Source: an uncultured Erysipelotrichaceae bacterium (GTDB lineage Bacteria > Bacillota_I > Bacilli_A > Erysipelotrichales > Erysipelotrichaceae). From it: a stretch of DNA of 64,000 bases. The translations under genes and the position numbers were made by a program. Positions 615 to 17,481 of this stretch are shown here, in pieces. The notes beneath the pieces are model-generated. The model was not told the origin of the DNA. It made no database searches and saw only the letters and a list, made by a program, of their open reading frames with translations. The stretch's first letter is position 1; every line of letters begins with the position of its first letter. The stretch spans positions 1 to 64,000 of the forward strand of contig CALVGQ010000012.1 of assembly GCA_944327135.1 (NCBI GenBank), written 5' to 3'.

Positions 615-631
615 AGAAAGGAAAGAAAAAC

Positions 632-841
632 ATGCTGCTGAATTTAATTTTATTTCCATTTCGGTTGTTGTTTATGATTGCCGGATTCATTTTGACAATG
701 TGCGGGAAATTGATGACCTTCTTAATTGGTTTGATTTTCTGTGTGCTCGGATTGTTTCTTTGTTTGACAGTGATCGGGATCATTCCAGGAATTATCCTTA
801 TTTTGATTGGAATAGCAACCATGCTGAAAGGATTATTTTAG
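632..841 (+). CDS. Small hydrophobic membrane protein, unknown function
   Basis: 69 residues, almost entirely hydrophobic, with two or three predicted membrane spans around residues 4-22, 28-48 and 50-66 and only a few charged residues. A purine-rich GAAAGGA lies just upstream of the ATG, and the TAG stop is immediately followed by the ATG of the U32 peptidase gene, so the two are probably translationally coupled. No recognisable family motif. It reads as a real gene because of its tight packing between two certain genes on the same strand. Confidence 0.72.
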   Translation: MLLNLILFPFRLLFMIAGFILTMCGKLMTFLIGLIFCVLGLFLCLTVIGIIPGIILILIGIATMLKGLF

Positions 842-3118
842 ATGAAAAAACCGGAATTGCTGGCACCAGCGGGTTCAATGGAAGCACTAAAAGCCGCCGT
901 GAACAATGGAGCAGATGCTGTTTATTTAGGAGGCTCACGTTTTGGAGCTCGCGCTTATGCTCAAAATTTTGATGAAAGAGCCATGGTGGAAGCTGTGCGA
1001 TTCTGTCATATTCGTGGTGTTCGAGTTTATGTGACCTTTAATACGCTGGTATATGAAGATGAGTTGGCTGAGGCGATGAAAATGGTTGACTTTTACTATC
1101 ATGCGCAAGTTGATGCGCTGATTATCCAGGATTTGGGGTTGTTTGAAATGGTTCGACAAACCTATCCTGATTTTGAATTGCATTGTTCAACACAGATGCA
1201 CATACATAATCTGGAAGGAATTCGACTGATGAAAAAATGGGGGGCATCCAGGGTTGTCGTAGCTCGAGAAACACCTCTTGAGCTGATTCGGGACTGGACA
1301 AAAGAAGAAATCGAAATCGAAGTCTTTGTATATGGCGCATTGTGTATTAGTTACAGTGGTCAATGTCTGTTAAGCAGCCTTAACGGAGGGCGCAGTGGCA
1401 ATCGAGGAGAATGTGCTCAGCCATGCCGAATGAAATATCAGCTTCAAAAAGGAAATTCTTATGAACCTATTCAAGCGACAGGAGAGTATTGGCTTAGTCC
1501 GCGAGATTTGTATACATTGGATCACTTAGAAGCATTGTTGGAAGCAGGAATCAGCAGTTTTAAGATTGAGGGAAGGATGAAGCGACCGGAATATGTAGGA
1601 GAGGTCGTTCATTTATATCGAAAGGCAATCGATGCCTGGTTTGAAAAGCGATCATGGAAATTGGGTTCAGAAGAAAAGGAAAGTCTGATGAAGCTTTTTC
1701 ATCGAGGGTTTACTTCTGGTCATTTATTTCATGCCGTTGGTTCATCTTTAATGAATTCAAGTCGACCTAATCATCAGGGAATTCTTTTGGGAGAGGTCAT
1801 GGGCAGAAACCAGCAGCGACTCGTTTTAAAACTTTCGCATGATCTTCATCAAGGAGATGGAATTCGTATTCTTTCTAAAAATCAAGACAGCGGATTAACT
1901 GTTCACCGTATTCTGAAAGATGGAAAACTCGTGAATCAGGCTAAAGCCTCTGAAACAGTCGAACTGGAAACATCCAAATCGCTTGTTTATCGGCCGCATG
2001 ATCTTGTTGTTTTGACAACTGATCGCAATCAATGTGAGTCTATTTTGAAACGTTCAGAGAAAATATTTCGGCCAATTCTTCTTCAGGGACGATTTGAGGC
2101 GCGAATTGGACAACCGGCAGTCTTTTTTTTAAGTGATGAAATGCATGAAATTGAGGTAAGCAGTGTGGAAATTGTTAGTCTTGCTAAGAAGGCTCCTTTG
2201 CAGCAAGACCAAATCCGAAAGCAGCTCAACAAATTGGGAGATACGCCTTATCAATATCAAAGTTTGGAATTGAATTGTGATTCTTCAATCTTTTTAAGTT
2301 TGCGCAGCTTGAATGAACTGCGTCGTCAGGCCGTGGAAAAAATAAATGAAGCCCGGATTGCGGTAAACCGCAAAATCATTCCGTTATTTGAATGGCCGAA
2401 AAGCATTAAACAGGATATTCAGGGAGATTGGTTCGATGCAGATCGAATTGAACAGGCTGAGGCAGTGATTCATTCTAAGCAGCCCTTATTCAGCTGTTTT
2501 CCAGATGTTTTGAATCGTTTCAGCGAAGCAGGGCAGAAAGGGCTCCGCGCAGAAGAAAAAACATCGTCCTTTCAAAGTAGATTTATTTTGCACAGTCAGC
2601 TAGGCTCTTTGCTTCAGCCGAAGGAAAAGGGACAAATTTGGCTGGCAGATACAGGTTTTAATGTTACTAACAGTTATGCACTTCATTTTTTAGCTGCTCT
2701 TCAGGTCGATGGCGTCGTTGCTTCTTTGGAAGCTTCTGATTCTCAAATTGAAGCAATGATCCAAGGTTATCAAAAACGTTACGGAGCCATGCCTTGTGTT
2801 GGAAAAAGAGTTTACGGTCGAAGAGAACTGATGATCATGAAACATTGCGTGGTCAACACGGCTTTATCGGATGGAAATCGTGTTCAATGCAGACTTTGTC
2901 AAAATGAACGTTATGCATTGAAGAATGAAAAAGGAGATCGTTTTTTATTAGGGAGAGATCCGCAATGTCATTCAATCCTGTTTGAAGAAAAACCTTTTAT
3001 AAGCATGGCTTGTCCAAAAGGAATTTCTTTTAGGATGTTCCGTTTTACTTTGGAAGATCGTCAGGAAACTGAAAAAGTGCTGCAGATGGCATTGGAAATC
3101 CCTTTTTCTAATGCTTGA
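842..3118 (+). CDS. U32 family peptidase (RlhA-type), long form
   Basis: 758 residues. The N-terminal half is a classic U32 domain: it opens with PELLAPAGS and continues with GADAVYLGG, and has the cysteine signature at about residues 168-195 (ALCISYSGQC, then GECAQPC). U32 members such as E. coli RlhA and TrhP work in hydroxylation of rRNA or tRNA bases; older names call them collagenase-like peptidases. The long C-terminal half, with additional Cys residues near the end (CRLCQNE), resembles the extra domain (DUF3656 type) of the long U32 form. The exact RNA substrate cannot be told from sequence. A clear terminator follows. Confidence 0.9.
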   Translation: MKKPELLAPAGSMEALKAAVNNGADAVYLGGSRFGARAYAQNFDERAMVEAVRFCHIRGVRVYVTFNTLVYEDELAEAMKMVDFYYHAQVDALIIQDLGLFEMVRQTYPDFELHCSTQMHIHNLEGIRLMKKWGASRVVVARETPLELIRDWTKEEIEIEVFVYGALCISYSGQCLLSSLNGGRSGNRGECAQPCRMKYQLQKGNSYEPIQATGEYWLSPRDLYTLDHLEALLEAGISSFKIEGRMKRPEYVGEVVHLYRKAIDAWFEKRSWKLGSEEKESLMKLFHRGFTSGHLFHAVGSSLMNSSRPNHQGILLGEVMGRNQQRLVLKLSHDLHQGDGIRILSKNQDSGLTVHRILKDGKLVNQAKASETVELETSKSLVYRPHDLVVLTTDRNQCESILKRSEKIFRPILLQGRFEARIGQPAVFFLSDEMHEIEVSSVEIVSLAKKAPLQQDQIRKQLNKLGDTPYQYQSLELNCDSSIFLSLRSLNELRRQAVEKINEARIAVNRKIIPLFEWPKSIKQDIQGDWFDADRIEQAEAVIHSKQPLFSCFPDVLNRFSEAGQKGLRAEEKTSSFQSRFILHSQLGSLLQPKEKGQIWLADTGFNVTNSYALHFLAALQVDGVVASLEASDSQIEAMIQGYQKRYGAMPCVGKRVYGRRELMIMKHCVVNTALSDGNRVQCRLCQNERYALKNEKGDRFLLGRDPQCHSILFEEKPFISMACPKGISFRMFRFTLEDRQETEKVLQMALEIPFSNA

Positions 3119-3130
3119 TTTGTGTTTAAA

Positions 3131-3156
3131 ACAACCTGGAAACAGGTTGTTTTTTT
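3131..3156 (+). terminator. Rho-independent terminator after the U32 gene
   Basis: Perfect 8-bp stem ACAACCTG / CAGGTTGT with a GAAA loop, followed by six or more T. It ends the sdaAA-U32 transcript before the smc promoter. Confidence 0.92.
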
Positions 3157-3209
3157 ATTTGTGAAAACTGAGTTTCTATGAATTTATAGTGTTCATTTAA
3201 GGGCATATT

Positions 3210-3218
3210 TGATATAAT
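3210..3218 (+). promoter_or_regulatory. Extended -10 promoter of the smc operon
   Basis: TGATATAAT is an extended -10 element (TG-n-TATAAT). No good -35 lies 16-18 bases upstream. It sits between the upstream terminator and the AGGAGG ribosome binding site of smc. Confidence 0.65.
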
Positions 3219-3244
3219 AATTTGGTGAAGTTAGGAGGCTGCTT

Positions 3245-6187
3245 ATGTTTTTGAAACGTATAGAAATGCAGGGATTTAAATCTTTTGCAGACAAAGTAGT
3301 CATATCCTTTGATCATTCGATTACCGGGGTCGTTGGCCCAAATGGCTGCGGGAAAAGTAATATCACGGATGCGATTCGATGGGTCCTGGGCGAGCAATCG
3401 GTAAAATCCCTGCGGGGCAATACCATGACAGATATTATATTTGCGGGCAGTGCTGATCGAAAAATGGTGAATCTGGCTGAAGTAACCTTGGTTTTTGATA
3501 ATTCATTGCATCAGCTGAATTCAGAGGCAGAGGAAATTGAGATAACTCGCCGTTTATATCGGCACACTGCGGAAGCAGAATATCTAATTAATCGGGTTCC
3601 TTGCCGGTTAAAGGATATTGTCGATCTGACTCTGGATACTGGTCTTGGAAGAGATTCGCTTTCCATGATCTCACAAGGCAATATTTCTTCTTTTGCTGAA
3701 GCTAAACCCATTGATCGGCGTGCTATTTTTGAAGAAGCAGCCGGTGTAAGCAAATACAAAAAAAGAAAAATTGAATCCCTTTCCAAGCTGGAAAGAACCA
3801 AAGAAAATTTAGAACGTGTTTCAGACATCGTTGCTGAATTGGAACGTCAGGTAACACCGTTGAAGCGTCAGGCAAGAAAAGCAGAAATCTTTCGAGAAAA
3901 GAAAAAACGTCTTCAGGAAATTGAGATTGCAGTTTTGGTCAAAGATATAGAACAGCTGAACCAGGATATGGAGCAGGCAGAAAAAACACTGTTTGAAATT
4001 GAGAGTCAGATGGCAATGCAAAACACGACGATTCAGGTACATGAAACGGCGGTTCAGCAATCCAGAGGACGAATCAGTCAATTGGAAACAGAAGTCAATG
4101 CGCTGCAAGATGAACTGATGAAAACGATTCGTGAAATTCAGACGCTGGAAACACGAAAGATCGAAGTAGATGAAAAGCGGAAATATGCCATTGAAGTAGG
4201 GAACAGTGAGGAAAAAATCCGAGAGTTATCCGAGTTGCTGGACGAAGCCCGTTTGGAATATCAAGATCGAAAACAGCGGATGGATCAGCTGAATATCGAT
4301 CTTGATTTGTTGAGCAGCCAGCTAACCGAGTCTGCCATGATGCTGATTGAAGCCAATCAAAAAAATGATCAGGCTCAGATGCTGGTCAGAAGGCTGGAAA
4401 ACCGCCGAGATCTGTTAGAAAACATGCTTAAAGAACCGTTTCACTCTCAATCCGGGGTTAAATCGATCATGGATAATCAAACTGCATTTTCTGGAGTTTG
4501 GGGTGTAGTTGCTCAGAATTTAAAGCCTGAAAACGGATATGAAGAGGCAATCAATGTTGCATTGGGCGGAGCGGTGATGAATATTGTAACCGAAGATGAA
4601 CGTGCAGCGCGTCGATGCATCGATTTTTTGAAAAAGAATCAAAGCGGTCGAGCAACCTTTTTGCCAGCAAGAGTGTTGCGGCCTCGAACAGTAAGTGCTG
4701 AACATCGAATTCTTGCAGAAAAAGCAGAGGGATTTCTTGGAATAGCCAGTCAGTTTGTTCACTGTTCTGCACGCTTTGAAGTGGTCAATCAAAGCCTGCT
4801 TCAAAATGTTTTGGTTGTGGATTCGCTTGAACATGGCAATCAATTGGCGGATTTGTTGAAATTCAGTTATAAAATCGTCACTCTGGAAGGCGACGTCATT
4901 CATCGCGGCGGCTCTATGACCGGCGGAAAAGTGCGAAATTCAACTTCGTTGATTACGGCTGAAAAGGAACTGAAGGAAATTCGACAGAAGCTGGATGGTG
5001 CAGCTGCTCAGAAGCAGTTAGCGGAGAAGGAAACTCATGCCATTTCACAGCGCAAAATTTCCCTTGAAAATCAGCTGATGGAAAAACGAATCAGTTTGGC
5101 TCAATTAGAACCGGTAGTAGAAGCGAAAAGAGCGAAATTCGAACGCTTGAAAAATGATTTGGATCAATTGCACCCCAATCAGGATTCAGTTCGATCTGAA
5201 GAGAATTTTCAGGATACGCTGATCCATCGCCTTAATGAAAATTATTCGAGAAGGGATGCAATTACTTCAGCGATTCAAGTAAAGCGAGAGGAAAGGATCA
5301 AGCTTTCTCAAGAAACCGAACGTAAAGAACAACAGATTCGTCAGATTCGTAAAGAATTAGAAACTGCGAATGCTTCTCAGCGGGCAATCGAAATCGATCA
5401 GGCAAAGCTTTCGACCCGTTTGGATGCGGCATTGAGTCGATTAACCAGTGAATATCAACTCACTTTTGATTATGCTAAGACACGAGTTCATGAAGGAAAT
5501 TTTGAGAATGCCAGAGAGGAAGTGCAAAGGCTTCGTCAAGAGATCGAAGCGTTGGGCAATATCAATATGAATGCTCCCGAAGAATATTCTGAGGTCAACG
5601 AGCGGTATGAATTCATGACAAAACAGATGAAGGATCTGATGGAAGCCAGAGAGAAGATCTTAACGGCTATTGATGAAATGGATGAAGTCATGATTCGATT
5701 ATTTAAGGAAATGTTTGAGAAGATCAATGCTGAGCTGAATGAAACTTTCCGTGTCTTGTTCGGTGGTGGAAAAGCTCGACTGATTTTGGAAGATCCGTCC
5801 GATATCTTGAATACCGGAATTGATATCGATGTTCAGCCGCCAGGGAAACAGGTTCAAAATATTCGCCTGTTTTCTGGTGGAGAAAAGAGTCTGATTGCAA
5901 TTTGTGTCCTATTTTCCATCTTGAAAGTCAGACCGGTCCCACTTTGTATTTTCGATGAGGTGGAAGCGGCTTTGGATCAGGGAAATGTTGAACGGGTTGC
6001 ACGGTATCTGAAAAATTTCAAACAGAATACACAGTTTATTGTTGTTACCCATCGTCCTGGAACAATGGAACAATGTGACGTATTGTATGGGGTCACGATG
6101 CAGAAACAGGGAGTTTCTCAGATGCTGAAAGTAGAACTGAAGGAAGCCGTTGGAATGGCAGATGAAAATCAGGAGGGAACAGCATGA
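3245..6187 (+). CDS. smc: Chromosome segregation ATPase SMC, short-armed
   Basis: Core subunit of the SMC-ScpAB condensin that organises and segregates the chromosome. Walker A GPNGCGKSN at 31-39; signature motif FSGGEKSL near 876-883; Walker B CIFDEVEAALD at 901-911. Flexible hinge at roughly 405-560 (VWGVVAQNL through GGSMTGGK), flanked by coiled-coil arms of about 230 residues each (170-400 and 565-790). At 980 residues it is about 200 shorter than the 1186-residue B. subtilis protein, and the shortening lies in the arms, not in the heads or hinge. ATG with AGGAGG seven bases upstream. The stop overlaps the ftsY start by four bases. rnc, often its upstream neighbour, lies 27 kb away here. 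Confidence 0.97.
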   Translation: MFLKRIEMQGFKSFADKVVISFDHSITGVVGPNGCGKSNITDAIRWVLGEQSVKSLRGNTMTDIIFAGSADRKMVNLAEVTLVFDNSLHQLNSEAEEIEITRRLYRHTAEAEYLINRVPCRLKDIVDLTLDTGLGRDSLSMISQGNISSFAEAKPIDRRAIFEEAAGVSKYKKRKIESLSKLERTKENLERVSDIVAELERQVTPLKRQARKAEIFREKKKRLQEIEIAVLVKDIEQLNQDMEQAEKTLFEIESQMAMQNTTIQVHETAVQQSRGRISQLETEVNALQDELMKTIREIQTLETRKIEVDEKRKYAIEVGNSEEKIRELSELLDEARLEYQDRKQRMDQLNIDLDLLSSQLTESAMMLIEANQKNDQAQMLVRRLENRRDLLENMLKEPFHSQSGVKSIMDNQTAFSGVWGVVAQNLKPENGYEEAINVALGGAVMNIVTEDERAARRCIDFLKKNQSGRATFLPARVLRPRTVSAEHRILAEKAEGFLGIASQFVHCSARFEVVNQSLLQNVLVVDSLEHGNQLADLLKFSYKIVTLEGDVIHRGGSMTGGKVRNSTSLITAEKELKEIRQKLDGAAAQKQLAEKETHAISQRKISLENQLMEKRISLAQLEPVVEAKRAKFERLKNDLDQLHPNQDSVRSEENFQDTLIHRLNENYSRRDAITSAIQVKREERIKLSQETERKEQQIRQIRKELETANASQRAIEIDQAKLSTRLDAALSRLTSEYQLTFDYAKTRVHEGNFENAREEVQRLRQEIEALGNINMNAPEEYSEVNERYEFMTKQMKDLMEAREKILTAIDEMDEVMIRLFKEMFEKINAELNETFRVLFGGGKARLILEDPSDILNTGIDIDVQPPGKQVQNIRLFSGGEKSLIAICVLFSILKVRPVPLCIFDEVEAALDQGNVERVARYLKNFKQNTQFIVVTHRPGTMEQCDVLYGVTMQKQGVSQMLKVELKEAVGMADENQEGTA

Positions 6188-7158
6188 GTTTTTTTTCAAA
6201 ATTAAAAGAACAGTTCTCCAGAAAAGAAGACCGCGATAAATATCTCAGTGGTTTCAGCAAGACCAAAGAATCACTGGCTCGAAAGCTTAGTCGCTTTGCT
6301 TTTGGCTTTAAAGGACTGACTGATGAATTTTTAGAAGAACTGATGATCAGTTTGCTGGAAAGCGATGTAGGAGTGGAGACAGCGGATCGAATTTTGGAAT
6401 CATTAAAAGAAAAGACCCGATCTTTGGATCATCCTGATTATGACACCGTCATTGACTTATTGGTCGAGTCCATGATGGAGTTATACCAGCAAACTGAAGA
6501 TCCTGTCATTACATTGAATGAGGAAGGGTGCACGGTCATTTTGCTGGTAGGAGTAAATGGCAGCGGAAAAACGACAACCTGCGCTAAACTTGCTAAAAAA
6601 TATCGGGATGAGGGGAAAAAAGTGGCGGTAGTTGCTGCGGATACCTTTCGCGCTGGAGCAGTTGATCAGTTAAAACGATGGGCCGATCGGCTGATGATTC
6701 CGTGTGTTGCAGGAAAAGAGAAACGAGATCCGAGCAGTGTTCTGGTCGATGGCTGTCGCTATGCAAAAGAAAACGGGATTGAAGTGCTACTTTGTGATAC
6801 GGCCGGCAGGTTGCAAAACAAAGCCAATCTGATGAGCGAGCTGGCAAAAATGCGGCGAGTGATCCAAAAGGAGATCAAAGGTGCGCCTCATCATGTTTGG
6901 CTGATTTTGGATGCAACAACCGGACAAAATGGAATGACTCAAGCTCGACTATTTCAGGAATCCACGCAGCTTACCGGTTTGATCCTGACTAAAATGGATG
7001 GAACCGCCCGTGGCGGAATTATTTTGGCTATTAAGGATTCGCTGCATCTGCCAGTGTATTTTATTGGATTAGGGGAGCATGAAGAGGATCTAAGGCCCTT
7101 TGATCTTGAGTCATATCTTTACAGCATGACTGAAGGAATCGTGCATGATGCTGGATAA
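6184..7158 (+). CDS. ftsY: Signal recognition particle receptor FtsY
   Basis: SRP-type GTPase that docks ribosome-SRP complexes at the membrane for co-translational insertion. A short charged N-terminal segment is followed by the helical N domain and the G domain: G1 GVNGSGKTTT near residue 123, DTFRAGA, G3 DTAGR near 203, and G4 TKMDG near 266. At 324 residues it is the compact Gram-positive form without the long acidic A domain. It overlaps smc by four bases (ATGA) and ylxM by 14 bases, so smc-ftsY-ylxM is one operon. Confidence 0.97.
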   Translation: MSFFSKLKEQFSRKEDRDKYLSGFSKTKESLARKLSRFAFGFKGLTDEFLEELMISLLESDVGVETADRILESLKEKTRSLDHPDYDTVIDLLVESMMELYQQTEDPVITLNEEGCTVILLVGVNGSGKTTTCAKLAKKYRDEGKKVAVVAADTFRAGAVDQLKRWADRLMIPCVAGKEKRDPSSVLVDGCRYAKENGIEVLLCDTAGRLQNKANLMSELAKMRRVIQKEIKGAPHHVWLILDATTGQNGMTQARLFQESTQLTGLILTKMDGTARGGIILAIKDSLHLPVYFIGLGEHEEDLRPFDLESYLYSMTEGIVHDAG

Positions 7159-7462
7159 AACAGAACGAATGAACGCTTTTCTGGATTTTTATGGCATGCT
7201 TTTGACAGAAAAACAACAAAGCGTGTTAAACTACCATTATCGAGAAGATTTTTCATACTCAGAGATTGCAGAACTGATTGGAACCAGCCGCACGGCGGTG
7301 TATGATTTGATTAAACGTTCGGAAGCACTACTTGAGTATTATGAGGAAAAGATGCAGTTGTTAAAACGTTATCAACTGCGAATGAAATGTTATGAAAAGC
7401 TGAATGCTTTACATATAGAAAAAGTAACAGAAATTGTTGCTGAATGCATGGAAACTGAATAA
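7145..7462 (+). CDS. ylxM: YlxM family SRP-associated DNA-binding-like protein
   Basis: 105 residues; helix-turn-helix resembling a sigma-70 region 4 (LTEKQQSVLNYHY, then YSEIAELIGTSRTAVYDLIKR). YlxM is the small helical protein normally encoded between ftsY and ffh; in streptococci it is reported to modulate SRP GTPase activity. The start at 7145 overlaps the end of ftsY. Unusually, the next gene is ackA and not ffh. Confidence 0.93.
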   Translation: MMLDKTERMNAFLDFYGMLLTEKQQSVLNYHYREDFSYSEIAELIGTSRTAVYDLIKRSEALLEYYEEKMQLLKRYQLRMKCYEKLNALHIEKVTEIVAECMETE

Positions 7463-7472
7463 GGAGGATTTT

Positions 7473-8672
7473 ATGAGTACAAAAGTAATTTCAGTCAATG
7501 CGGGTTCTTCTTCACTTAAATTCCAGCTTTACAATATGCCGGAGGAAGAGGTGCTTTGTTCCGGTGTAGCCGAAAGAATCGGATTAGAAGAAGGCATTTT
7601 TACGATCAAGATCCATGGAGAAAAACATACGATCAACACTCCGATTCCAGATCACGATACAGCAGTAAACATGCTGCTTAAAGCATTAATCGACTACAAG
7701 GTTGTGGCTGATTTGGCTGAAATCAAAGGGGCCGGGCATCGCGTAGTTCAAGGAGGAGATTATTTTAAAGGTAGCTGTATCTGTGACGAGGTCAGTACGG
7801 CAAAAGTGTTGGAATATGCGGAATTGGCACCGCTTCATAACAAAGCCAACGCCGGTGGTTATTTAGCATTCAAAAAAGCATTGCCGAGCTGTGGAAACAT
7901 CTTTGTCTTTGATACTGCGTTTCATCAAACGATGAAACCGGAAGTCTATATGTATGCGGTTCCGTATGAATGGTATACTGATTATAAGGTTCGTCGTTAC
8001 GGAGCTCATGGAACATCTCATGATTACGTTTCCCATCGGATGGCAGATCTGATGGACCGTGATATTCAAGGAACCCGGATGATCACTTGTCATCTTGGCA
8101 ACGGGGCTTCGATCTCTGCTGTAAAAGATGGAAAATGTGTTGCTACATCAATGGGATTTACACCGTTAGGCGGGATCATGATGGGAAGCCGTTGTGGTGA
8201 TATTGACCCTGCGATTGTTCCTTATGTCATGAAAAAGACCGGAATGACTCCTGATGAAATGGATACGGCATTAAATAAAAAATCGGGTATGCTGGGAATC
8301 AGTGGAATTTCAAGTGATGCCAGAGATGTTGAAAATGGTGTTCAAGAAGGTAATGAACGAGCTGTTCTGACGCAGGCCATGTATGTAAATCGTGTCATTA
8401 ACGTCATCGGAGGCTATGTCATGCAAATGGGAGGTGTAGACGCCATCTGTTTCACAGCCGGTTTAGGAGAAAATGACGTACACTTGCGACATATGATTTT
8501 AGAAGCGATGAGTGAGCATCTCGGCTTAGTTATCGATTATGAAAAAAATGATACCGTTCGTGGAGAAGAAGCGCTGCTTAGCAAACCGGAATCCAAAGTT
8601 CAGGTTTGGATCATTCCAACGAATGAAGAACTGATGATTGCACGGGATACTTATCGTATTTTGGGATTGTAA
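7473..8672 (+). CDS. ackA: Acetate kinase
   Basis: Converts acetyl phosphate plus ADP to acetate plus ATP, the last step of fermentative acetate formation. 399 residues, the usual length. Motifs: N-terminal NAGSSSLKFQ, YGAHGTSH, HLGNGASI, and FTAGLGEN near the C-terminus. The start at ATG 7473 is set by AAGGAGGATTTT directly upstream; a longer in-frame extension to 7434 overlaps ylxM and lacks a ribosome binding site. No pta gene is in the window. Its stop overlaps the neighbourhood of the nrnA start (one base apart), suggesting coupling. Confidence 0.97.
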   Translation: MSTKVISVNAGSSSLKFQLYNMPEEEVLCSGVAERIGLEEGIFTIKIHGEKHTINTPIPDHDTAVNMLLKALIDYKVVADLAEIKGAGHRVVQGGDYFKGSCICDEVSTAKVLEYAELAPLHNKANAGGYLAFKKALPSCGNIFVFDTAFHQTMKPEVYMYAVPYEWYTDYKVRRYGAHGTSHDYVSHRMADLMDRDIQGTRMITCHLGNGASISAVKDGKCVATSMGFTPLGGIMMGSRCGDIDPAIVPYVMKKTGMTPDEMDTALNKKSGMLGISGISSDARDVENGVQEGNERAVLTQAMYVNRVINVIGGYVMQMGGVDAICFTAGLGENDVHLRHMILEAMSEHLGLVIDYEKNDTVRGEEALLSKPESKVQVWIIPTNEELMIARDTYRILGL

Positions 8673-8673
8673 T

Positions 8674-9600
8674 ATGTTTGAAGGGTTATTGGAGAGTCTG
8701 GAATCAGCTGAAATCATTACGATTTTTCGCCATATACATGCCGATATGGATGCCCTTGGCAGTCAATATGGTTTAAAGGAATGGATTCTTGAGCATTATC
8801 CTGAAAAAAGAGTGTATGCTTTGGGAAAGGACCGTGATGATCATCTTTTTCCTTTAACGGACGAGGTAGAAGATTCCGTGATTGCCAACAGCTTGGTTAT
8901 TGTCTTGGATTGTGCCAATAAAGAACGAATCGATGATCAGCGTTTTGCATTAGGAAAACAGATCCTTGCTATTGATCATCATCCTTTTCAGGATTCGTTT
9001 ATGGATCAAGAGTATCGCTTTGTTTCCTATGCAGCAACCTGTGAAATCTTAACTGAATTTTTTCTTCAGACAGGAAAATCTCTTTCAAAGCAAGTTGCTA
9101 CTTTTTTGTATCGTGGACTTTTAACAGATACCTGTTCATTTAAAACCAACAACACAACAGCGCATACATTAAAAATTGCAGCGGCGCTTTGTGAAGCAGG
9201 GATCGATCTGGTTCAGTGCAATCAAGACGTTTTTGATGTAGCTCGAAATGAGTTTGAATTTGCGACGTATCTGCGCTCTAAAGCGACGCGGGAAAGCAAT
9301 GGGTTAGTCTGGTGTATTTTAGAAACTGAAGAATTTGAACAGTATGGATTAACTGCGTCACAGGCAAAGGAACAGGTTTTTCAGTTTCAAAATGTACAGG
9401 GTTTTGAAATTTGGTGTGTCTTTACAAAAAATGAAATCGGCTTGTATGATGGTTCTTTGCGCAGTCGTAAAAAGGCAATCAATCAAATTGCTTCGCATTT
9501 TCATGGGGGCGGGCATGCCTGTGCCAGTGGAGTCAAGAATTTGAATTGCCAAGAATTGGAAGAATGTTTGGCTGAACTTCGTCAATTGCTGAATCCATGA
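8674..9600 (+). CDS. nrnA: DHH/DHHA1 family phosphoesterase, NrnA-like oligoribonuclease / pAp phosphatase
   Basis: 308 residues, close to the ~313 of B. subtilis NrnA, which degrades nano-RNAs and dephosphorylates pAp. DHH motifs: HIHADMDALGSQ near residue 20, a D in VIVLDCAN, and DHHP near 105. The C-terminal DHHA1 part has GGGHACASG. The start is ATG 8674, one base after the ackA stop; upstream there is only a weak GGGA, so translation is probably coupled to ackA. The extension to 8638 lies inside ackA and is not used. Confidence 0.93.
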   Translation: MFEGLLESLESAEIITIFRHIHADMDALGSQYGLKEWILEHYPEKRVYALGKDRDDHLFPLTDEVEDSVIANSLVIVLDCANKERIDDQRFALGKQILAIDHHPFQDSFMDQEYRFVSYAATCEILTEFFLQTGKSLSKQVATFLYRGLLTDTCSFKTNNTTAHTLKIAAALCEAGIDLVQCNQDVFDVARNEFEFATYLRSKATRESNGLVWCILETEEFEQYGLTASQAKEQVFQFQNVQGFEIWCVFTKNEIGLYDGSLRSRKKAINQIASHFHGGGHACASGVKNLNCQELEECLAELRQLLNP

Positions 9601-9631
9601 CGAAAAAAAGCTTAAAATGACGCTTAAATTG

Positions 9632-9661
9632 TTGTTTTTGAATTATTGATAGTGGTATAAT
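9632..9661 (+). promoter_or_regulatory. Promoter of the HU gene
   Basis: TTGTTT (9632-9637) and TATAAT (9656-9661) separated by 18 bases, 23 bases upstream of the HU ATG. The ribosome binding site GGAGG follows near 9672. Confidence 0.82.
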
Positions 9662-9684
9662 ATTTATATCTGGAGGATAAAAAA

Positions 9685-9972
9685 ATGAGTAATATTGTAA
9701 ACAAAAAAGCATTAGCAGAAGTGATTGCCGCTAAAACGGGAATGACAAAAAAAGCAGCCACTGAAACCGTGGAAATGATTTTTGATGAAATAACCTCAAG
9801 TCTGACTAATGGGGATAAGGTCGATATTAGTGGATTTGGAAGATTTGAAGTAAAAGAAAGAGCCGAACGGACCGGAATCAACCCGGCAACAAAAGAAAAA
9901 ATTACTGTTCCGGCGACTCGTGTTCCTTCTTTTAAAGCTGCTAAAGCGCTGAAAGAAACAGTTAAGAAATAA
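9685..9972 (+). CDS. hup: HU family DNA-binding protein
   Basis: 95-residue nucleoid protein. It has the HU/IHF fold: the N-terminal helices contain NKKALAEVIAAKTG, followed by GFGRFEVKERAERTGINPAT, the beta-arm region with the conserved proline, and the closing VPSFKAAKALKE. It bends and compacts DNA as a dimer. It is monocistronic, between its own promoter and a strong terminator. Confidence 0.97.
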   Translation: MSNIVNKKALAEVIAAKTGMTKKAATETVEMIFDEITSSLTNGDKVDISGFGRFEVKERAERTGINPATKEKITVPATRVPSFKAAKALKETVKK

Positions 9973-9980
9973 CGAAATAA

Positions 9981-10015
9981 GAAACGATGTTTATAAAATC
10001 ATCGTTTCTTTTTTT
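9981..10015 (+). terminator. Rho-independent terminator of the HU gene
   Basis: 9-bp stem GAAACGATG / CATCGTTTC with a 10-base A/T loop, followed by T7. Confidence 0.93.
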
Positions 10016-10120
10016 ATATAGTTAATATAAACTTAAAAGGAGTTAAAATCCCGAAGATTTCCTGTTATTATCCCATATTTCTTTGTTATACTAGAAAATA
10101 AAGTAGAAAGAAGGAAGCTC

Positions 10121-10789
10121 ATGGACATATTTCTTTATCTGGCAGCATTGCTTATCGTTTTGTTCGCACAAGTAAAAGTGAATGGCGCTTATCAGCGATA
10201 TCAGCAAATTTATAATAGTCGCGGATGGACAGGGGTCCAGGCAGCAAGAAAGATCCTGGATACTCATGGATTAAATAATGTTCAAATTGAACATGCATCG
10301 GGTGTTTTAGGGGATCATTACGATCCCCGTACAAAAACGGTCCGCCTTTCTGATGCAATTTATCATGGAGATTCGATCGCATCCATTGCTGTTGCTGCTC
10401 ATGAATGCGGACATGCCATCCAGCACGCTGAAAATTATGGATTTATTGCGCTTAGAAATTCGATCCTTCCCATCTGCAGTTTATCAAGCAATTTGGCCTG
10501 GCCGATGCTTTTCTTTGGAATAATTTTTTCGATCCAAGGATTGCTTTATATTGGAATTATCCTTCTGCTGGCAGTTTTAACATTCCAAATCATCACGCTG
10601 CCAATTGAATTTAATGCCTCTTCACGGGCTTTAAAGATACTTAACGAAGAAGGGATGATCGATTCCCAGGAACAAGCTGAAGTAAGATCGATGCTTTCTG
10701 CAGCAGCGATGACTTATGTTGCGGCAGTCATTTCTTCAGCTCTGCAAATCCTTCGCTTTTTACTGATTGCCAATCGTCGTAGAGATTAA
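10121..10789 (+). CDS. YugP-like membrane zinc metallopeptidase
   Basis: 222 residues, with an N-terminal membrane span (residues 2-20) and further spans near 120-165 and 190-212. The zinc motif HECGH is at about residues 94-98 (VAAHECGHAIQHAE), and a downstream FNASSRA segment likely supplies the third ligand region, as in the DUF2268/YugP family (Zn peptidase_2). Its role is unknown in general; membrane quality control is a guess. A possible -10 TATACT lies at 10087-10092 and GAAGGAAG precedes the ATG. It is the last gene of the plus-strand run before the dif-like site. Confidence 0.9.
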   Translation: MDIFLYLAALLIVLFAQVKVNGAYQRYQQIYNSRGWTGVQAARKILDTHGLNNVQIEHASGVLGDHYDPRTKTVRLSDAIYHGDSIASIAVAAHECGHAIQHAENYGFIALRNSILPICSLSSNLAWPMLFFGIIFSIQGLLYIGIILLLAVLTFQIITLPIEFNASSRALKILNEEGMIDSQEQAEVRSMLSAAAMTYVAAVISSALQILRFLLIANRRRD

Positions 10790-10881
10790 CAGTAAAAAAG
10801 GGAACGTCTTATTGACGCCGTTATAGGAGCTACCTAGTTTTCTTTTCGTATGTATGTTAATTAAATTGGAGTAATATTCGC

Positions 10882-11378
10882 ATGTCAAAACATAAATTTA
10901 CCCTTGATAAGGCAGAATGGCAATGGAAATCCGCTTTAGATATTTATTTAAGGGAATATCATAAAACTGAAGACGTTTGGATGAAAAAGATAATCGCATA
11001 ATTTGGGAGTGCTCTGCTAATCATATATCATGTTTCTTAACATGGATGATCAATAATAATTTCTTGAGCAAAATACACGAAGCTCATCTTGAAGATATTT
11101 CAAAAGTGAAAGAAAGAAAAATGACTGGATATGAATATTTGTCGAAGAATTGCGATATGGTACTTTCAAGAGAAGATGTATCACGAAAACTTGTTAAATT
11201 CGTTGATTATTTTTATGAAACGTACATCGATGAATATTGTAATTTTATTGAAAATAATTTACATAAAACAGTGTTAGGGATAGTATTTTCTTGGGAAGAT
11301 TATGATAAAATAGCTTTTGATATCATTAATCCCAATTATGATAGCTTTATCAAAAATAAGACAAAGATAACGAAGTAA
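10882..11378 (+). pseudogene. Frameshifted gene, possible DUF7832/immunity-like protein
   Basis: A frame starting at ATG 10882, with GGAG upstream, reads for 39 codons and stops at 10999-11001. The continuation lies in another frame from about 10977 to 11378. Joining them near 10976-10980, where adding one T to the GTTTGG run restores the frame, gives a coherent ~165-residue protein with W-rich, HI..FL.W motifs (ANHISCFLTWMINNN). The pattern resembles small soluble proteins annotated as DUF7832 or immunity-like; this family call is weak. The region is visibly more AT-rich than its neighbours, as expected for acquired DNA. A single-base sequencing error is the alternative to true inactivation. 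Confidence 0.6.
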
Positions 11379-11424
11379 AGAATAAAGAACAACAAATAGT
11401 AATCTATTTTTCGAAAATCATATA

Positions 11425-11452
11425 ACTTCGCATAATGTATATTATGCGATAT
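11425..11452. other. dif: Candidate dif (XerC/XerD recombination) site
   Basis: 28 bp with dif architecture: left arm ACTTCGCATAA, six-base centre TGTATA, right arm TTATGCGATAT. Compared from memory with E. coli dif, it shares the central 18 bases starting at CGCATAA and 22 of 28 overall. The left arm also begins ACTTC, as in the Bacillus/Staphylococcus dif sites. The inner part is a perfect inverted repeat (TCGCATAAT / ATTATGCGA around GTAT). It lies exactly where gene orientation changes from all plus to mostly minus, and xerD is 1.3 kb away. The alternative is a chance palindrome. Confidence 0.68.
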
Positions 11453-11472
11453 TTTGACATTAAACATAAGAG

Positions 11473-11507
11473 TCAACCCCAGATCCTTTTATTGAATCCG
11501 GGGTTGA
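11473..11507 (-). terminator. Hairpin downstream of deoB, possible terminator
   Basis: Inverted repeat TCAACCCC / GGGGTTGA with a ~19-base loop, five bases past the deoB stop. The T-run on the minus strand is poor (CTCTTAT), so termination efficiency is uncertain. Confidence 0.55.
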
Positions 11508-11511
11508 TGGT

Positions 11512-12693
11512 TTATAAAAGTTTATTTAAAAGTGATTCACCATATTGCGGCATTTCCACTTCAAAATTATCAGCGATGGTAGCCCCGATAGCTGCAAAAG
11601 TATCGGTAGGTGCCAGCAATCCTCCACCGTTCATTGATGGAGAATACAGGATCAGAGGTACCATTTCACGGGTGTGATCTGTACCAGTATGCGTTGGATC
11701 ATTGCCATGATCCGCAGTAAGAATGAGTAAATCTTCTTCTTTTAACTTGCTAAGGACTTCTTTTAGCTGTCCGTCAAAGGTTTCAATCTCAGCTGCATAG
11801 CCTTGCGGATTTCTCCGATGTCCCCAAAGCGCATCGAAATCAACCAGATTGACAAAGCACAGTCCAGTAAAATCAGAGTCCATGCGTTCCAGCAAGATGT
11901 TCATTCCGTCGACATTGCTCTTTGACTTATGGGCTTCTGTGATTCCCTCTCCATCAAAAATATCTCTGATTTTTCCAATGCTAATGACATCCAAATGATT
12001 TTCTTTTAACGTATCCAATACGGTTTTTCCATAAGGCTTTAAAGCATAGTCGTGGCGGTTGCTGGTCCGTTTAAATTCGCCTTTTTTGCTTCCGATAAAT
12101 GGTCTCGCAATGACTCGCCCTACTTTCCATTCATCTTTCATCGTCAATTCTCGAGCAATCTCACAGCAACGATATAGCTCTTCAAGACCAAAAGTTTCTT
12201 CATGAGCACAGATTTGCAAAACAGAGTCCGCCGAGGTATAAACGATCATCTTGCCGGTCTGCATATGCTCTTCTCCAAGCTCATCCATAATCTCCGTTCC
12301 TGAAGCAGACTTATTTCCTAGAATTCCATGCCCTGTTTTTTCTGATAACTGATTTAACAATTCCTCAGGAAATCCGGTCTCCGTAAAGGTTTGAAAAGGC
12401 GTATCGATATACAGTCCCATCATTTCCCAATGTCCAGTCATCGTATCTTTTCCCACTGATTTTTCCAGCATTTTTGTATAATAGCTGCATATCTCTTGAA
12501 CGGGATCGATTCCTTTGATCGGATGAAGATTGCCCGCACCAAGCTTTTTTAAAGTCGGGCATTGAAGTCCGCCTACAGCTTGTGCGGTATGACCAAAGGT
12601 ATCTGTTCCTGCATCTCCATATTTTGCTGCATCTGGCATTGCCCCTACTCCTAATGAGTCCATAACAATGGTAATAATTCTTTTGTACTTCAT
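11512..12693 (-). CDS. deoB: Phosphopentomutase
   Basis: Interconverts ribose/deoxyribose 1-phosphate and 5-phosphate in nucleoside salvage. 393 residues, the normal length. The alkaline-phosphatase-superfamily metal motifs are visible: [13 protein letters not shown] at the N-terminus with the metal Asp, [17 protein letters not shown], and the C-terminal [18 protein letters not shown] cluster. ATG with AGGAG upstream. Twelve bases separate it from the upstream xerD stop, so spoIIM-xerD-deoB is an operon, matching the xerD-drm order of B. subtilis. Confidence 0.97.
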
Positions 12694-12705: not shown

Positions 12706-13614
12706 TTATTTATTTTGATCGTTTTGATCCAATTTAGCCATTGGATGAAACGAGCTGTATCCTTGAATTAATCGCTGCGAATCAACATGAGTATATATTT
12801 CTGTTGTACTGATATCAGAATGTCCTAACAATTCTTGAATCACTCGAAGATCAGCACCATGATTTAACAGATGTGTAGCATAACTGTGCCTAAGCTTGTG
12901 CGGGGTAATTGGCTTTTTTAACCCGACTTGATTACATACATATTTTAACACAATCTGTACCCTTTCGCACCGTATTCGCCTTCCTTTTTCATTTACAAAA
13001 AAAAGTCGTTCACGCGGATTTGCCCAATGAGCCCGAATCGTTAGGAAATATTTTTTTAAAATTGGCAATGAATTGGAAGGAATTGGAACAACTCGTTCCT
13101 TATTCCCTTTTCCTAAGACTCGTATAAATCCTTCGGATAAATTGACTTGACTGACCTCTGCATTAACACATTCACTAATACGCAATCCACATCCGTAAAT
13201 CATTTCAAAAATCGCATGATATAAGATATCCAGATCAGAGTTGGAAAAAAAATCCATAATTTTTTTAATTTCCTCTTCCGTGCAGTAAATCGGAAGAGCA
13301 TGAATTTTATGCGGTGCTGCTAAATTCATAGAGGGATCATTCAAATCATATTTATAGCTAAGAAAACGATGAAAAGAACGAATCGAGCTGCAGGCGCGAG
13401 TAACCGAAGAAGCTTTCTTTTGTTCGCATAATTCAGCAATATAGTGCTGAATCAACGATAAACCAATCTCCTCTATGCTTGAAATCTGTTGGTGTTTTAA
13501 CCAGCGGACGTACTGCATTAAATCGTGGCAATAGCTCTGAACTGTTCGTTCACTTTTGTTTTCGTTGTATGTTAAATACAAATGGAATTCCTGTACTGCT
13601 TTTTCTAATTCCAT
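12706..13614 (-). CDS. xerD: Tyrosine recombinase XerD
   Basis: Site-specific recombinase that resolves chromosome dimers at dif. N-terminal SAM-like core-binding domain (residues 1-90) and a catalytic domain with all active residues: Arg in CGLRISE (about 145), Lys in GKGNKE (169), His and Arg in PHKLRHSYATHLL (239, 242), His in LLGHSD (265), Tyr in STTEIYTHV (274). The ATG at 13614 is chosen because AGGTG lies seven bases upstream; a GTG nine bases earlier also reads in frame. It lies between spoIIM and deoB as in B. subtilis. The dif-like site at 11425 is 1.3 kb away. Confidence 0.94.
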   Translation of the reverse strand: MELEKAVQEFHLYLTYNENKSERTVQSYCHDLMQYVRWLKHQQISSIEEIGLSLIQHYIAELCEQKKASSVTRACSSIRSFHRFLSYKYDLNDPSMNLAAPHKIHALPIYCTEEEIKKIMDFFSNSDLDILYHAIFEMIYGCGLRISECVNAEVSQVNLSEGFIRVLGKGNKERVVPIPSNSLPILKKYFLTIRAHWANPRERLFFVNEKGRRIRCERVQIVLKYVCNQVGLKKPITPHKLRHSYATHLLNHGADLRVIQELLGHSDISTTEIYTHVDSQRLIQGYSSFHPMAKLDQNDQNK

Positions 13615-13643
13615 GTCAATCACCTGACTCTATTATAAGCATT

Positions 13644-14249
13644 TTACTGAAGCATTGCAAAGAGATCCATCAAAGACAAGACCAAAGTCGCCTTAATGAT
13701 GCTACTAAACAGGATCAAAGCCAAACTGAGAAGAACACCGTTTAATTTTTCATTTAGCAATGTTTTCCACTGAATAACCCGTGTGTTCATAAAACTGCGT
13801 TTAAAAAGCTGAAAAGAGAGTTCAAAGGCTACCGTGCTAATTACAAAGATTGCGATAGCATCAAAACTGACCTGTGGAATCAAGGTAAGAATAATTCCAA
13901 TCATTCCTTTTAGCTGATAAGTAATTAAATACATGGCACAGGAAAATCCAATTTGCACTCCCTTAGTAAAGATCACAAAAGCAATCATTGGCATTCCAAT
14001 GACAGAAAAGCCGAAAAAAAGAACTAGCAAACATAAAAGCAAATTGGTTGTAAATTGCGTGAGAAAAAAATCCTGCTTATCAACAGCCGTTAAAACTGTA
14101 GAAAAAGCTCCGCTGCTTAACGATGCGATGACTTCCGGGTTCATCCACTGACTAAGCAGCACGCCACAAATCATCCCAGAAAGAAATAAAATAGATAAAA
14201 AGTGAATCACATTTTGATGAGGACTCAATTTTTCGATGTAATTTTTCAT
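13644..14249 (-). CDS. spoIIM: Stage II sporulation protein M
   Basis: 201-residue integral membrane protein with about five spans (residues ~15-35, 68-90, 92-112, 118-140, 170-192). In spore formers SpoIIM acts with SpoIID and SpoIIP in septal peptidoglycan remodelling during engulfment. Overall length and order with xerD match B. subtilis. AGGAGG precedes the ATG with a seven-T spacer; the SD and T-run can pair loosely with an A7CC stretch next to the dinB stop, so the dinB end and the spoIIM start share a weak hairpin. An early sporulation promoter could not be identified. Confidence 0.9.
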   Translation of the reverse strand: MKNYIEKLSPHQNVIHFLSILFLSGMICGVLLSQWMNPEVIASLSSGAFSTVLTAVDKQDFFLTQFTTNLLLCLLVLFFGFSVIGMPMIAFVIFTKGVQIGFSCAMYLITYQLKGMIGIILTLIPQVSFDAIAIFVISTVAFELSFQLFKRSFMNTRVIQWKTLLNEKLNGVLLSLALILFSSIIKATLVLSLMDLFAMLQ

Positions 14250-14290
14250 AAAAAAACCTCCTGCTATACCCTATGTTCGCAAAGGTTTTT

Positions 14291-15460
14291 TTATGTTCTG
14301 TTCTTTTTTAAACGGGAAGCAACGATCAAAGAAGGATGAGAAAGCTGCCGATTCAACGCATCAACAATTTCCAAAGTATCATTCGTAGTTTGATGTTCTT
14401 CAAACAGATTCATCTGAATTTTCTGCTGATTACTGTCCTGAAGTGCAGAAACAGCAATCCCGATATGGCGAATTGTCTCATCACTAAGATTTTGATCAAA
14501 CAAAGCGATAGCATGTTCATAAAGATCATCCGCTTGCTGAATTGGATATTCAATTTTTTTCGAGCGTACAATGGTCGTAAAATCAAAAAAACGAACAGAA
14601 ATAGAAAGAGTACTCCCCCTTTTCCCCTCTTCTTTCAGGCGCTGAGAGAGCTGACTGGATAGTTTTCGAAAAGCGGTACAGATCTCATTATAATCCCGAA
14701 TGTCAGAAAGAAAAGTAGTCGATTGAGAAAGACTTTTTACTTCATGATTACAGATTATTTCATCTGAGGAGATTCCGTTGGCCCGATCAATCATCAATTG
14801 TGTATTTTTTCCAAAAATTGTGCGAAGCTGTTCCAAGTCTTTAAATTCAGCAAGATCTTGAATCGTTTCAATTCCTATTGACTTTAAAAGCGAAGCAGTT
14901 TTTTTTCCTATTCCCTGCATTTCCTGTATGGATAGAGGCCAAAGCTTAGATTTTATCTCCTGTTTTCGAAGGACCGTGATTCCCATCGGTTTTTTCATAT
15001 CACTCGCCATTTTTGCAAGAAATTTATTAGGTGCAACACCAATAGAACAACGCAAATGAAGATCAGAAAATAGATTTTGTTGGATTTGCCAGGCAAGGTC
15101 CAAAGGTCTAGAATACTTTTGAATGGCTTCGGTCATATCAGCATAGCATTCATCGATCGAAGCTTGTTCAACCCAAGGAGTAATTCTCCGGATGCGCTGA
15201 ATAAACTGCTCTGATAATTCTTCATAAAAACTAAAATGCCCTTTGACAACGATCAGCTGAGGGCATAATTCCAAAGCCTCCTGAATTGGCATGGCTGAAT
15301 GAACACCAAAAGAACGAGCAAGATAATTTGCAGTTGAAACAACACTGCGCCGTGATAGTCCGCTCACCGCTACCGGTTTTCCTGCCAAAGCAGGATCAAG
15401 AACTTCCTCAGCACTGGCATAAAATGCATTAAGATCTATATGAAAAATGATTTTAGCCAT
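14291..15460 (-). CDS. dinB: DNA polymerase IV (Y family)
   Basis: Error-prone translesion polymerase. 389 residues; palm motif IIFHIDLNAFYASAEE at the N-terminus, with catalytic Asp in FHIDLNAF, and SIDECYADMT near residue 100 with the second Asp/Glu pair. Helix-hairpin-helix thumb GIGKKTASLLKSIG near 180. Little-finger domain follows. The C-terminus (QIQMNLFEE) has a QxxNLF-type beta-clamp binding peptide. A good promoter with TTGAAC lies directly upstream, and this -35 shares TTGAACT with the SRAP promoter, suggesting possible damage regulation. Confidence 0.96.
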   Translation of the reverse strand: MAKIIFHIDLNAFYASAEEVLDPALAGKPVAVSGLSRRSVVSTANYLARSFGVHSAMPIQEALELCPQLIVVKGHFSFYEELSEQFIQRIRRITPWVEQASIDECYADMTEAIQKYSRPLDLAWQIQQNLFSDLHLRCSIGVAPNKFLAKMASDMKKPMGITVLRKQEIKSKLWPLSIQEMQGIGKKTASLLKSIGIETIQDLAEFKDLEQLRTIFGKNTQLMIDRANGISSDEIICNHEVKSLSQSTTFLSDIRDYNEICTAFRKLSSQLSQRLKEEGKRGSTLSISVRFFDFTTIVRSKKIEYPIQQADDLYEHAIALFDQNLSDETIRHIGIAVSALQDSNQQKIQMNLFEEHQTTNDTLEIVDALNRQLSHPSLIVASRLKKNRT

Positions 15461-15484
15461 GAAACACCGTACCCTTCCAGATTC

Positions 15485-15513
15485 ATCATAGCATTTAGTT
15501 GAAATTAGTTCAA
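15485..15513 (-). promoter_or_regulatory. Promoter of dinB
   Basis: On the minus strand TTGAAC (15513-15508) and TATGAT (15490-15485) are separated by 17 bases. AAGTACTT, a small palindrome, overlaps the upstream edge of the -35. Confidence 0.75.
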
Positions 15514-15515
15514 GT

Positions 15516-15551
15516 AAAAAAGATAATCACAGGAGCACCCCATGATTATCT
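15516..15551 (-). terminator. Terminator of spo0A
   Basis: Minus-strand 9-bp stem AGATAATCA / TGATTATCT followed by five to six T. The 5' arm overlaps the spo0A stop codon. Confidence 0.88.
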
Positions 15552-16379
15552 AACTTTGTATAACTGGCTTTGTTTGAGCTTCATTCGATGATCCAGCCGA
15601 AGTTTATCGGCAATCATGGCAATGAATTCAGAATTGGTTGGTTTTGCCTTTGTGGCACTGATTGTATAAGCAAAGATCTCATCAATCGCGTCAATATTTC
15701 CACGATTCCAAGCCACTTCAATTGCATGCCGAATCGCTCGTTCAACTCGGGATGAGGTTGTTTTATAACGTCGAGCAATCTCGGGATATAAGACTTTTGT
15801 GATCTGGCCAAGAAAATCAACGTTAAGATAAGTTTCAATAATTGCAGTTCTTAGATACAGATATCCTTTGATATGAGCAGGAATTCCGATTTCATGAAGG
15901 ATTTCGGTCACTTCTTTTTCTAATTGAATTTTCTGCATCGCTTCACTGGAAAGCGCTTGATCATCAAATGGAATCATATCCTTCGGTGTCTCTACAAATC
16001 CTATATCAGAATTAGCCATGATCTGAAGGCATTTATTCAGACACTGACGACAACTAAATGGTTTTAACATAAAATAATCTACATGCAGCTGCTGCATTTC
16101 CTTCATCAAGGTGTCATTGCTAAAACCGGATGTACACAGAATTTTACGGGAGGTAATACCACGTGATTTCATCTGCTTTAAGACTTCGATTCCATCGACC
16201 TTAGGCATGATACAGTCCAGCACCAAGACATCCATATCTCGTGGAGCATTACTTAAAAAATCTTCTCCATCTTTAAATAAACCTAGTAATTCAAAATTTT
16301 TGTTAGCATGAATTTCTTTCTGCATTTCAACAATGAAGTTTTGATTGTCATCGACTACGATAATTCGTATTTTATTCAT
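15546..16379 (-). CDS. spo0A: Sporulation master response regulator Spo0A
   Basis: Phosphorelay output that turns on sporulation genes. Receiver domain with acidic pair in VVDDN, phospho-acceptor Asp in VLDCIMPK, and Lys in MLKPF; linker; C-terminal Spo0A DNA-binding domain with the recognition helix region [19 protein letters not shown]. The second ATG (16379) is preferred because AGAGG lies nine bases upstream; the first ATG (16388) touches that same SD. spoIVB lies immediately upstream, the standard endospore-former order. Two 0A boxes lie upstream, so autoregulation is likely. Confidence 0.97.
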
Positions 16380-16430
16380 TTCACTCATCCTCTCACAGTC
16401 GCTATTTTAGACCGTTTTTCTCACGAGAAA

Positions 16431-16447
16431 TGTCGAAATGTGTCGAT
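16431..16447. promoter_or_regulatory. Tandem 0A boxes upstream of spo0A
   Basis: TGTCGAA at 16431-16437 matches the Spo0A-binding consensus core, and TGTCGAT at 16441-16447 differs by one base. They are ten bases apart, one helical turn, about 50 bases upstream of the spo0A start. Next to them is a small palindrome TTTCTC / GAGAAA (about 16417-16430). Confidence 0.7.
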
Positions 16448-16470
16448 AACTCCCATTTTTTGGATAACTT

Positions 16471-17481
16471 TCAGTAAAGAGAAAGGGATTGCTGAATCAT
16501 CCATTCAATATGAATGCCATATCCTTTTTGCGGGGTGCTTGTTACCATATGGGTCACAGCCCCGATCAATTGGCCATCCTGTACGATCGGACTTCCACTC
16601 ATCCCCTGAACAATCCCGCCTGCGGCTTCCAGTGCAACAGAATCAATAATATCAAAGCTTATTCCCTTGATAGATGGACTGTCTTGAAGCGTGATCTCTG
16701 TGATCATGATCTTGATTGGAACGATCGATTGGTTCTCAAGAACAGTATAAATATAAGCTTCACCTTCGTGGGCGGATTGCTGGCTCCCTACAGTGATTAA
16801 TTGTTTTGATGGATCCAGCAAAGTATAGTGTCCATAAAGTCCATAGGCGGTATTTTTTAAAACAGAGCCAATTTGAGTTAGCGTATTTAGACAATTTTTT
16901 TCACCCGGCTGATGAGGAGTGCTCGGAGTGATCGCCTCTACAGAAGCCAAAAAAAGGCTTCCCGCACTGATTTCAGCGATTTTTCCCAAATCATTCTCCA
17001 TAATTTCGTGTCCCAAAGCGCCGTAGGAATGATTGACCGGATTATAAAACGTTACAGTTCCGATCCCTTTGATTTTATCTTTGACATAAAACCCGGTTTT
17101 AAAAAGCTTTTCGTCCTCCAAATAATAGACACGCAATGTTTTCTGCAGGGTCGTTCCATCACGAATAACGGTTACGGCATAATCAGCATTTTTTCGCAGG
17201 TTTATAGAAAGAACCTGATAGAGATCCTCCAGATTCTCTACTGGTGACTGTTCAACAGCAATAATCTTATCGCCGATTTCAAGATCACTTTGCATCGCTG
17301 GAGAAATCCATTCTTCTTCCACCTTAAAATCATACATTCCACTGATGATTACGCCTTCATAATCGCCTTGAATTGCTACCGTCTCTCCTCCAAGATAAAC
17401 TTGACTGACAGCCGCATCCACTTTTGCTGGAACGCTACCAAATAAGACGATCGCAAGGAATACAGCAAGTTTTTTTTTCAT
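16471..17481 (-). CDS. spoIVB: SpoIVB peptidase (S55)
   Basis: Forespore-secreted serine protease that triggers pro-sigma-K processing. Order: signal-anchor (residues 5-23), PDZ domain (about 35-120), S55 domain with His158 in GALGHE, Asp280 and Ser295 in QGMSGSPIV; these positions match the B. subtilis triad by spacing. 336 residues, somewhat shorter than the 426-residue B. subtilis protein. AAGGAG precedes the ATG. It is directly upstream of spo0A, as in nearly all endospore formers. Confidence 0.95.
   Translation of the reverse strand: MKKKLAVFLAIVLFGSVPAKVDAAVSQVYLGGETVAIQGDYEGVIISGMYDFKVEEEWISPAMQSDLEIGDKIIAVEQSPVENLEDLYQVLSINLRKNADYAVTVIRDGTTLQKTLRVYYLEDEKLFKTGFYVKDKIKGIGTVTFYNPVNHSYGALGHEIMENDLGKIAEISAGSLFLASVEAITPSTPHQPGEKNCLNTLTQIGSVLKNTAYGLYGHYTLLDPSKQLITVGSQQSAHEGEAYIYTVLENQSIVPIKIMITEITLQDSPSIKGISFDIIDSVALEAAGGIVQGMSGSPIVQDGQLIGAVTHMVTSTPQKGYGIHIEWMIQQSLSLY

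Follow-up and report, generated by a model that had tools for sequence, protein, structure and literature searches.

A putative chromosomal dif site adjoining xerD at the replication terminus of an uncultured Erysipelotrichaceae bacterium

Results and discussion

The 28-mer ACTTCGCATAATGTATATTATGCGATAT, found exactly at positions 11425–11452 on the plus strand of the window (the whole stretch of 64,000 nucleotides analysed here), is very probably the chromosomal dif site of a normal XerCD system, and we would put the probability of this reading at about 0.96. Our conclusion is drawn from the single copy of the site, the flip of GC skew around it, the homologous sites of relatives, their mid-chromosome position in closed genomes, and the co-occurrence of XerC, XerD and an FtsK gamma domain. 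The site itself, its copy number, its location at the terminus and the presence of these three proteins are thus directly supported, in agreement with the original prediction of a chromosomal dif at the terminus; no new mechanism is needed. The features of the region are collected in Table 1.

Table 1. Features of the dif region (positions are those of the window)
Feature	Position	Strand	Remarks
Left flank, end of one replication arm	1–11378	+	all genes on the plus strand; GC skew about +0.19
smc	3245–6187	+	left flank
ftsY	6184–7158	+	left flank
ackA	7434–8672	+	left flank
Complete dif site	11425–11452	+	single copy in the draft genome; model R1 34.7 bits, E 3.9e-8
Left (XerC-type) arm ACTTCGCATAA	11425–11435	+	invariant positions in relatives; G-rich side
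6-bp central region TGTATA	11436–11441	+	strand exchange expected here; spacing as in XerCD sites
Right (XerD-type) arm TTATGCGATAT	11442–11452	+	inverted repeat; TTAT conserved in relatives
Intrinsic terminator of the incoming deoB/xerD operon	11473–11507	-	14-pair stem with 7 GC pairs; end 20 bp from dif
deoB (phosphopentomutase)	11512–12693	-	TIGR01696 575 bits, above cut-off; between dif and xerD
xerD, tyrosine recombinase	12706–13623	-	NF001399 283.5 bits, above cut-off
spoIIM, dinB, spo0A, spoIVB	13644–17481	-	Pfam/NCBIfam matches; continuation of the right-arm block

Structure and copy number of the site

The site has the format of XerCD targets, namely 28 bp with two 11-bp arms in partial dyad symmetry around a centre of 6 bp, a spacing typical of such sites (PMC5357621). 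The segments 11428–11436 and 11441–11449 form an inverted repeat with 100% complementarity, and the central TGTATA is the same as in E. coli. In an alignment of the sites of 22 relatives, T4, C5, G6, A8, T9, A10 and A11 of the left arm are invariant; the right arm ends here in CGATAT, as against TAATNT, which is commoner in the family, while CGAT is shared by other genera. The left arm lies on the G-rich (leading-strand) side, both here and in all 16 relatives with sequence on both sides.

The original prediction started from a match to E. coli dif at 22 of 28 positions and from an ACTTC motif shared with Bacillus-type sites. Both were recovered: we counted 22/28 identities to E. coli dif and 20/28 to B. 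subtilis dif, the latter also containing ACTTC. The E. coli match taken alone is just above chance for a 64-kb window and only mildly improbable, the best identities in 50 mononucleotide shuffles of the window reaching a maximum of 21 (mean 18.7). The case for dif therefore rests on other evidence. A weight matrix derived from the relatives' sites gives the site a score of 43, and all six shuffled windows stayed below 8. Allowing up to three mismatches, we found no other copy of the 28-mer in the window or in the whole 2,045,300-bp draft genome (117 contigs, 96% complete), in line with one copy per chromosome; such a scan had been proposed along with the prediction. A second site could sit in an assembly gap of this draft.

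Position at the replication terminus

Over the first 10 kb GC skew is about +0.19, and from there it stays mostly between -0.05 and -0.2 out to 84 kb of the contig. At the site it flips from +0.19 to about -0.12, and cumulative skew peaks at 11727, 275 bp beyond the site, which is the kind of switch seen at a terminus and the sign change that had been put forward as a check. Transcription converges on the same point: ORFs matching genes to the left of the site are all on the plus strand, and nearly all large ORFs to its right are on the minus strand, just as originally described.

The genome itself is not closed, and its own dnaA contig (C57) displays a weak skew change of the opposite kind. 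In five relatives assembled as one contig, with dnaA at the start or, in G006, at 1.26 Mb, the distance from dnaA to dif amounts to 45%, 50%, 51%, 54% and 57% of the chromosome. Skew sampled along G030 as twenty 8-kb stretches was positive in the ten stretches between 1 and 668 kb and negative in the ten from 735 kb onwards, with dif at 697 kb. The site fixes the replication terminus in an unfinished genome.

Some oligonucleotides are also polarized with respect to the site: GAAGAAG occurs 48 times towards dif and 12 times away from it, and GNNAGGG 35 and 11 times. We rejected this polarity as a sign of FtsK-loading (KOPS/SRS) signals, since the coding strand shares the same direction and the counts are uninformative; canonical KOPS/SRS motifs were too rare to use.

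Homologous sites in relatives

When the 91-bp region around the site was compared with relatives, 59 of 60 gave some match to it, and the best matches were centred on the 28-mer. Twenty relatives were fetched with flanks, of which 16 had sequence on both sides. In all 16 the site has the same orientation, with positive skew to its left and negative skew to its right, and in 12 of them the cumulative maximum lies no more than 500 bp away. The site of another genus in the family shares 27 of 28 positions, and those of the other 19 fetched relatives share 23–26.

We then scanned 138 genomes of the order with a sequence-only model built from 22 sites (threshold E ≤ 0.01, E-values of such a short model being rough). 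A dif site was found in 127 of them, mostly exactly one, and 11 gave no match. The resulting consensus, ACTTCGCATAATGTATATTATGTAATnT, supplies a dif reference for a little-studied order.

Such conservation bears on the idea that the 28-mer arose by chance, as a palindrome (a terminator, say) where convergent genes meet in AT-rich DNA. It is true that a terminator scan accepts the palindrome with its following T's and that the resemblance to E. coli dif hardly exceeds that of shuffles. However, near-identical sites across genera, nearly all of them at a skew switch, and the near-universal presence of dif across the order refute this explanation, to which we give almost no credence.

In one genome, three dif-like sites (two on the minus strand and one on the plus strand) lie within 5 kb (G083:C1:1605393-1610238), as might be left behind by a mobile element using Xer at dif. 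Another, G041:C1, contains repeated runs of three consecutive tyrosine recombinase genes (e.g., 755022-757837, 1368860-1371675 and 2402679-2405494); three of the runs score identically, and the runs look like recombinase-in-trio elements.

Genes flanking the site

The original prediction regarded a location of polC, smc, ftsY and xerD close to a terminus as unusual. For this lineage such a view does not hold, because these neighbours recur near dif in relatives: smc-ftsY-ackA is found within 10 kb of dif in several of them, and polC in one. On the other side, dinB, spo0A and spoIVB are also to the right of dif in several relatives. The distance of 1.3 kb given for xerD was accurate, the gene beginning 1,254 bp to the right of the site. 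Among named sequences, those closest to the intervening deoB come from Erysipelotrichaceae, so that the host probably belongs to this family. Directly to the left, a DUF7832-family gene is split at 10882–11378 into a 39-codon ORF that begins at 10882 and another frame that begins at 10977; it is frameshifted, being either a pseudogene or an assembly error.

This broken gene is one reason to consider whether the 28-mer serves a mobile element that exploits Xer (IMEX) as its attachment site, or is a pdif of the plasmid type; another is that such elements are known to target dif. Yet the site occurs once only, neither the window nor the draft genome contains a second half-site or another dif-like site bordering mobile DNA, XerC and XerD are the only tyrosine recombinases, the flanking genes are conserved chromosomal ones common to relatives, and the site sits at the skew switch. 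An attachment site of this kind is accordingly very improbable, if slightly less so than a chance palindrome.

Recombinases and FtsK

The genome encodes exactly two tyrosine recombinases. The product of the window gene scores 279.4 bits as XerD (TIGR02225) versus 277.7 bits as XerC (TIGR02224), both below cut-off; five copies from linked relatives score higher as XerD. Its neighbour deoB matches the ripX-drm arrangement of B. subtilis (drm = deoB). We named this recombinase XerD mainly on account of the deoB neighbour, the scores of the relatives and the unambiguous assignment of the second gene to XerC. Its catalytic-type residues R148, K172, H242, R245, H268 and Y277 are invariant in 20 relatives. 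The second recombinase, on contig C110, scores 306.5 bits as XerC versus 288.2 as XerD and is flanked by ORFs reading as trmFO and rpsB, a setting like that of codV/xerC in Bacillus. Together with one FtsK gamma domain (102.5 bits), all three proteins of the system are encoded.

The machinery would probably act as in other XerCD systems, from which the individual steps are taken. Recombination would join sister chromosomes into a dimer, and the septal DNA pump FtsK would bring the two copies of dif together. The left arm ACTTCGCATAA is the predicted binding site of XerC, and the right arm TTATGCGATAT that of XerD; XerD would be activated by the FtsK gamma domain, so that the reaction at this dif is expected to depend on FtsK, and the XerC/XerD pair would swap strands at the 6-bp centre, yielding two monomers.

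No XerC/XerD-grade match was present in 3 of the 11 dif-less genomes (G016, G072 and G112), as compared with 0 of the 127 dif-bearing ones (hypergeometric p about 4e-4, calculated by hand). This joint absence fits a functional coupling of dif with XerC/XerD, although in drafts it is no more than suggestive. The three genomes are nearly complete and belong to the same family, and G016 and G072 are devoid of any tyrosine recombinase; loss of the whole Xer/dif system is possible.

Linkage of dif and xerD

A XerD profile made from 20 sequences was run on the same 138 genomes, the best match in each being taken as XerD. As it was built mostly from linked copies, this profile could confuse XerC with XerD in a few cases, an error that cannot by itself place a gene close to dif. 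The counts refer to 97 genomes with both features on the same contig and leave out 10 whose best XerD match fell outside the matches listed and 20 with dif and xerD on different contigs, in some of which both are near contig ends. In 92 of the 97, xerD is on the right (XerD-arm) side of dif, and in 91 of these 92 it is transcribed towards dif. The median distance is 1.5 kb, with 75 genomes at 5 kb or less and 91 at 20 kb or less; the shortest gap, about 13 bp to the profile match, was found in G030 and G071. In closed genomes, xerC is 55–543 kb from dif. Two one-contig genomes have the xerD beside dif broken into frames (G096:C1:1138944-1139809 and G085:C1:2443552-2444450), through decay or sequencing error.

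In the wider class, xerD is on the right side, convergent and within 12 kb in 29 of the 38 genomes that have both on one contig, these 29 representing ten further families. The arrangement fails in family f13 (same side, 173–236 kb) and in f14, f18 and f22 (other side, 60–112 kb). Outside the order, 20 sites were checked, 19 of them picked for being linked, and skew turns from positive to negative at 18. Among 80 named deoB loci, dif lies on the far side of deoB in 11, which by name are Erysipelotrichaceae, Holdemania or Traorella, except for HGW-Firmicutes-19; none of the 11 is clostridial.

At 17 loci chosen by dif alone, xerD was the commonest neighbour within 10 kb (13 loci, always on the right); other right-side families were kept in 11, 10 and 10 loci, and left-side ones in at most 7. 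Since the whole right-hand block is kept in relatives (deoB, xerD, dinB, spo0A and others), it most likely represents an ancestral gene order of the right arm protected near the terminus, and its breakage in some lineages is most simply read as the result of insertion or inversion. Inversions near the terminus are fewer and shorter (PMC5993296), and the order would be preserved because rearrangements there are selected against. It might alternatively be supposed that selection acts on the dif-xerD linkage as such, for instance through a terminus-timed dosage of xerD, and that the linkage is not leftover order. In G030, G156, G176 and G158, deoB is absent from this place yet xerD remains beside dif, which favours such selection; we nevertheless regard it as rather unlikely.

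The same proximity raises the question of a single-recombinase module of the XerS/difSL or XerH/difH kind, to which xerS beside difSL (PMC5357621) offers a parallel: xerD is no more than 1.3 kb away here, and in those 75 genomes it lies on the same side at 5 kb or less. Against this, XerC is also encoded, the centre of the site is 6 bp and not 11 bp, and the XerS model reaches 127.9 bits versus a cut-off of 267, which leaves such a module scarcely credible.

Comparison with known systems

Over positions 11422–11455, which give the best fit in the window, the site matches loxP of phage P1 Cre in register at 27 of 34 positions (the 34-bp comparison comprises dif plus the preceding ATA). The right arm, however, matches at 7/11 only, and instead of the 34-bp loxP with perfect 13-bp inverted repeats and Cre, we found imperfect repeats and no third, Cre-like tyrosine recombinase in the genome. 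Ordinary dif sites share most of the match (over 28 positions, 18 for E. coli and 19 for B. subtilis), even though the present site matches loxP better. A loxP/Cre system was rejected on these grounds.

XerS/difSL of streptococci and lactococci and XerH/difH of epsilonproteobacteria resemble our case in having the recombinase gene linked to the site, but they use one recombinase, whereas here two accompany a canonical dif. The single 356-aa XerS-family recombinase and the 31-bp site with its 11-bp centre that define XerS/difSL (PMC5357621) are both lacking here. Recombinase-site linkage has been described for single-recombinase systems (PMC2731167, PMC5357621); in the literature that we searched (incompletely covered, with few subscription papers), no description of a dif-xerD block in a two-recombinase system was found. 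Such a block hints at how single-recombinase modules could come about.

Finally, the system shares with XerCD/dif of E. coli and B. subtilis a 28-bp site of 11-6-11 format, present in a single copy at the terminus, and two recombinases with an FtsK gamma domain; it differs in that xerD adjoins dif. In B. subtilis, xerD (ripX, beside drm, i.e., deoB) is about 0.5 Mb from dif. The xer genes of two-recombinase systems have been described as scattered (PMC2731167), with an overall trend that places xerC close to dif and xerD close to the origin (PMC3025954). The dif-deoB-xerD block, kept in most of the class members tested, qualifies both the rule and the trend.
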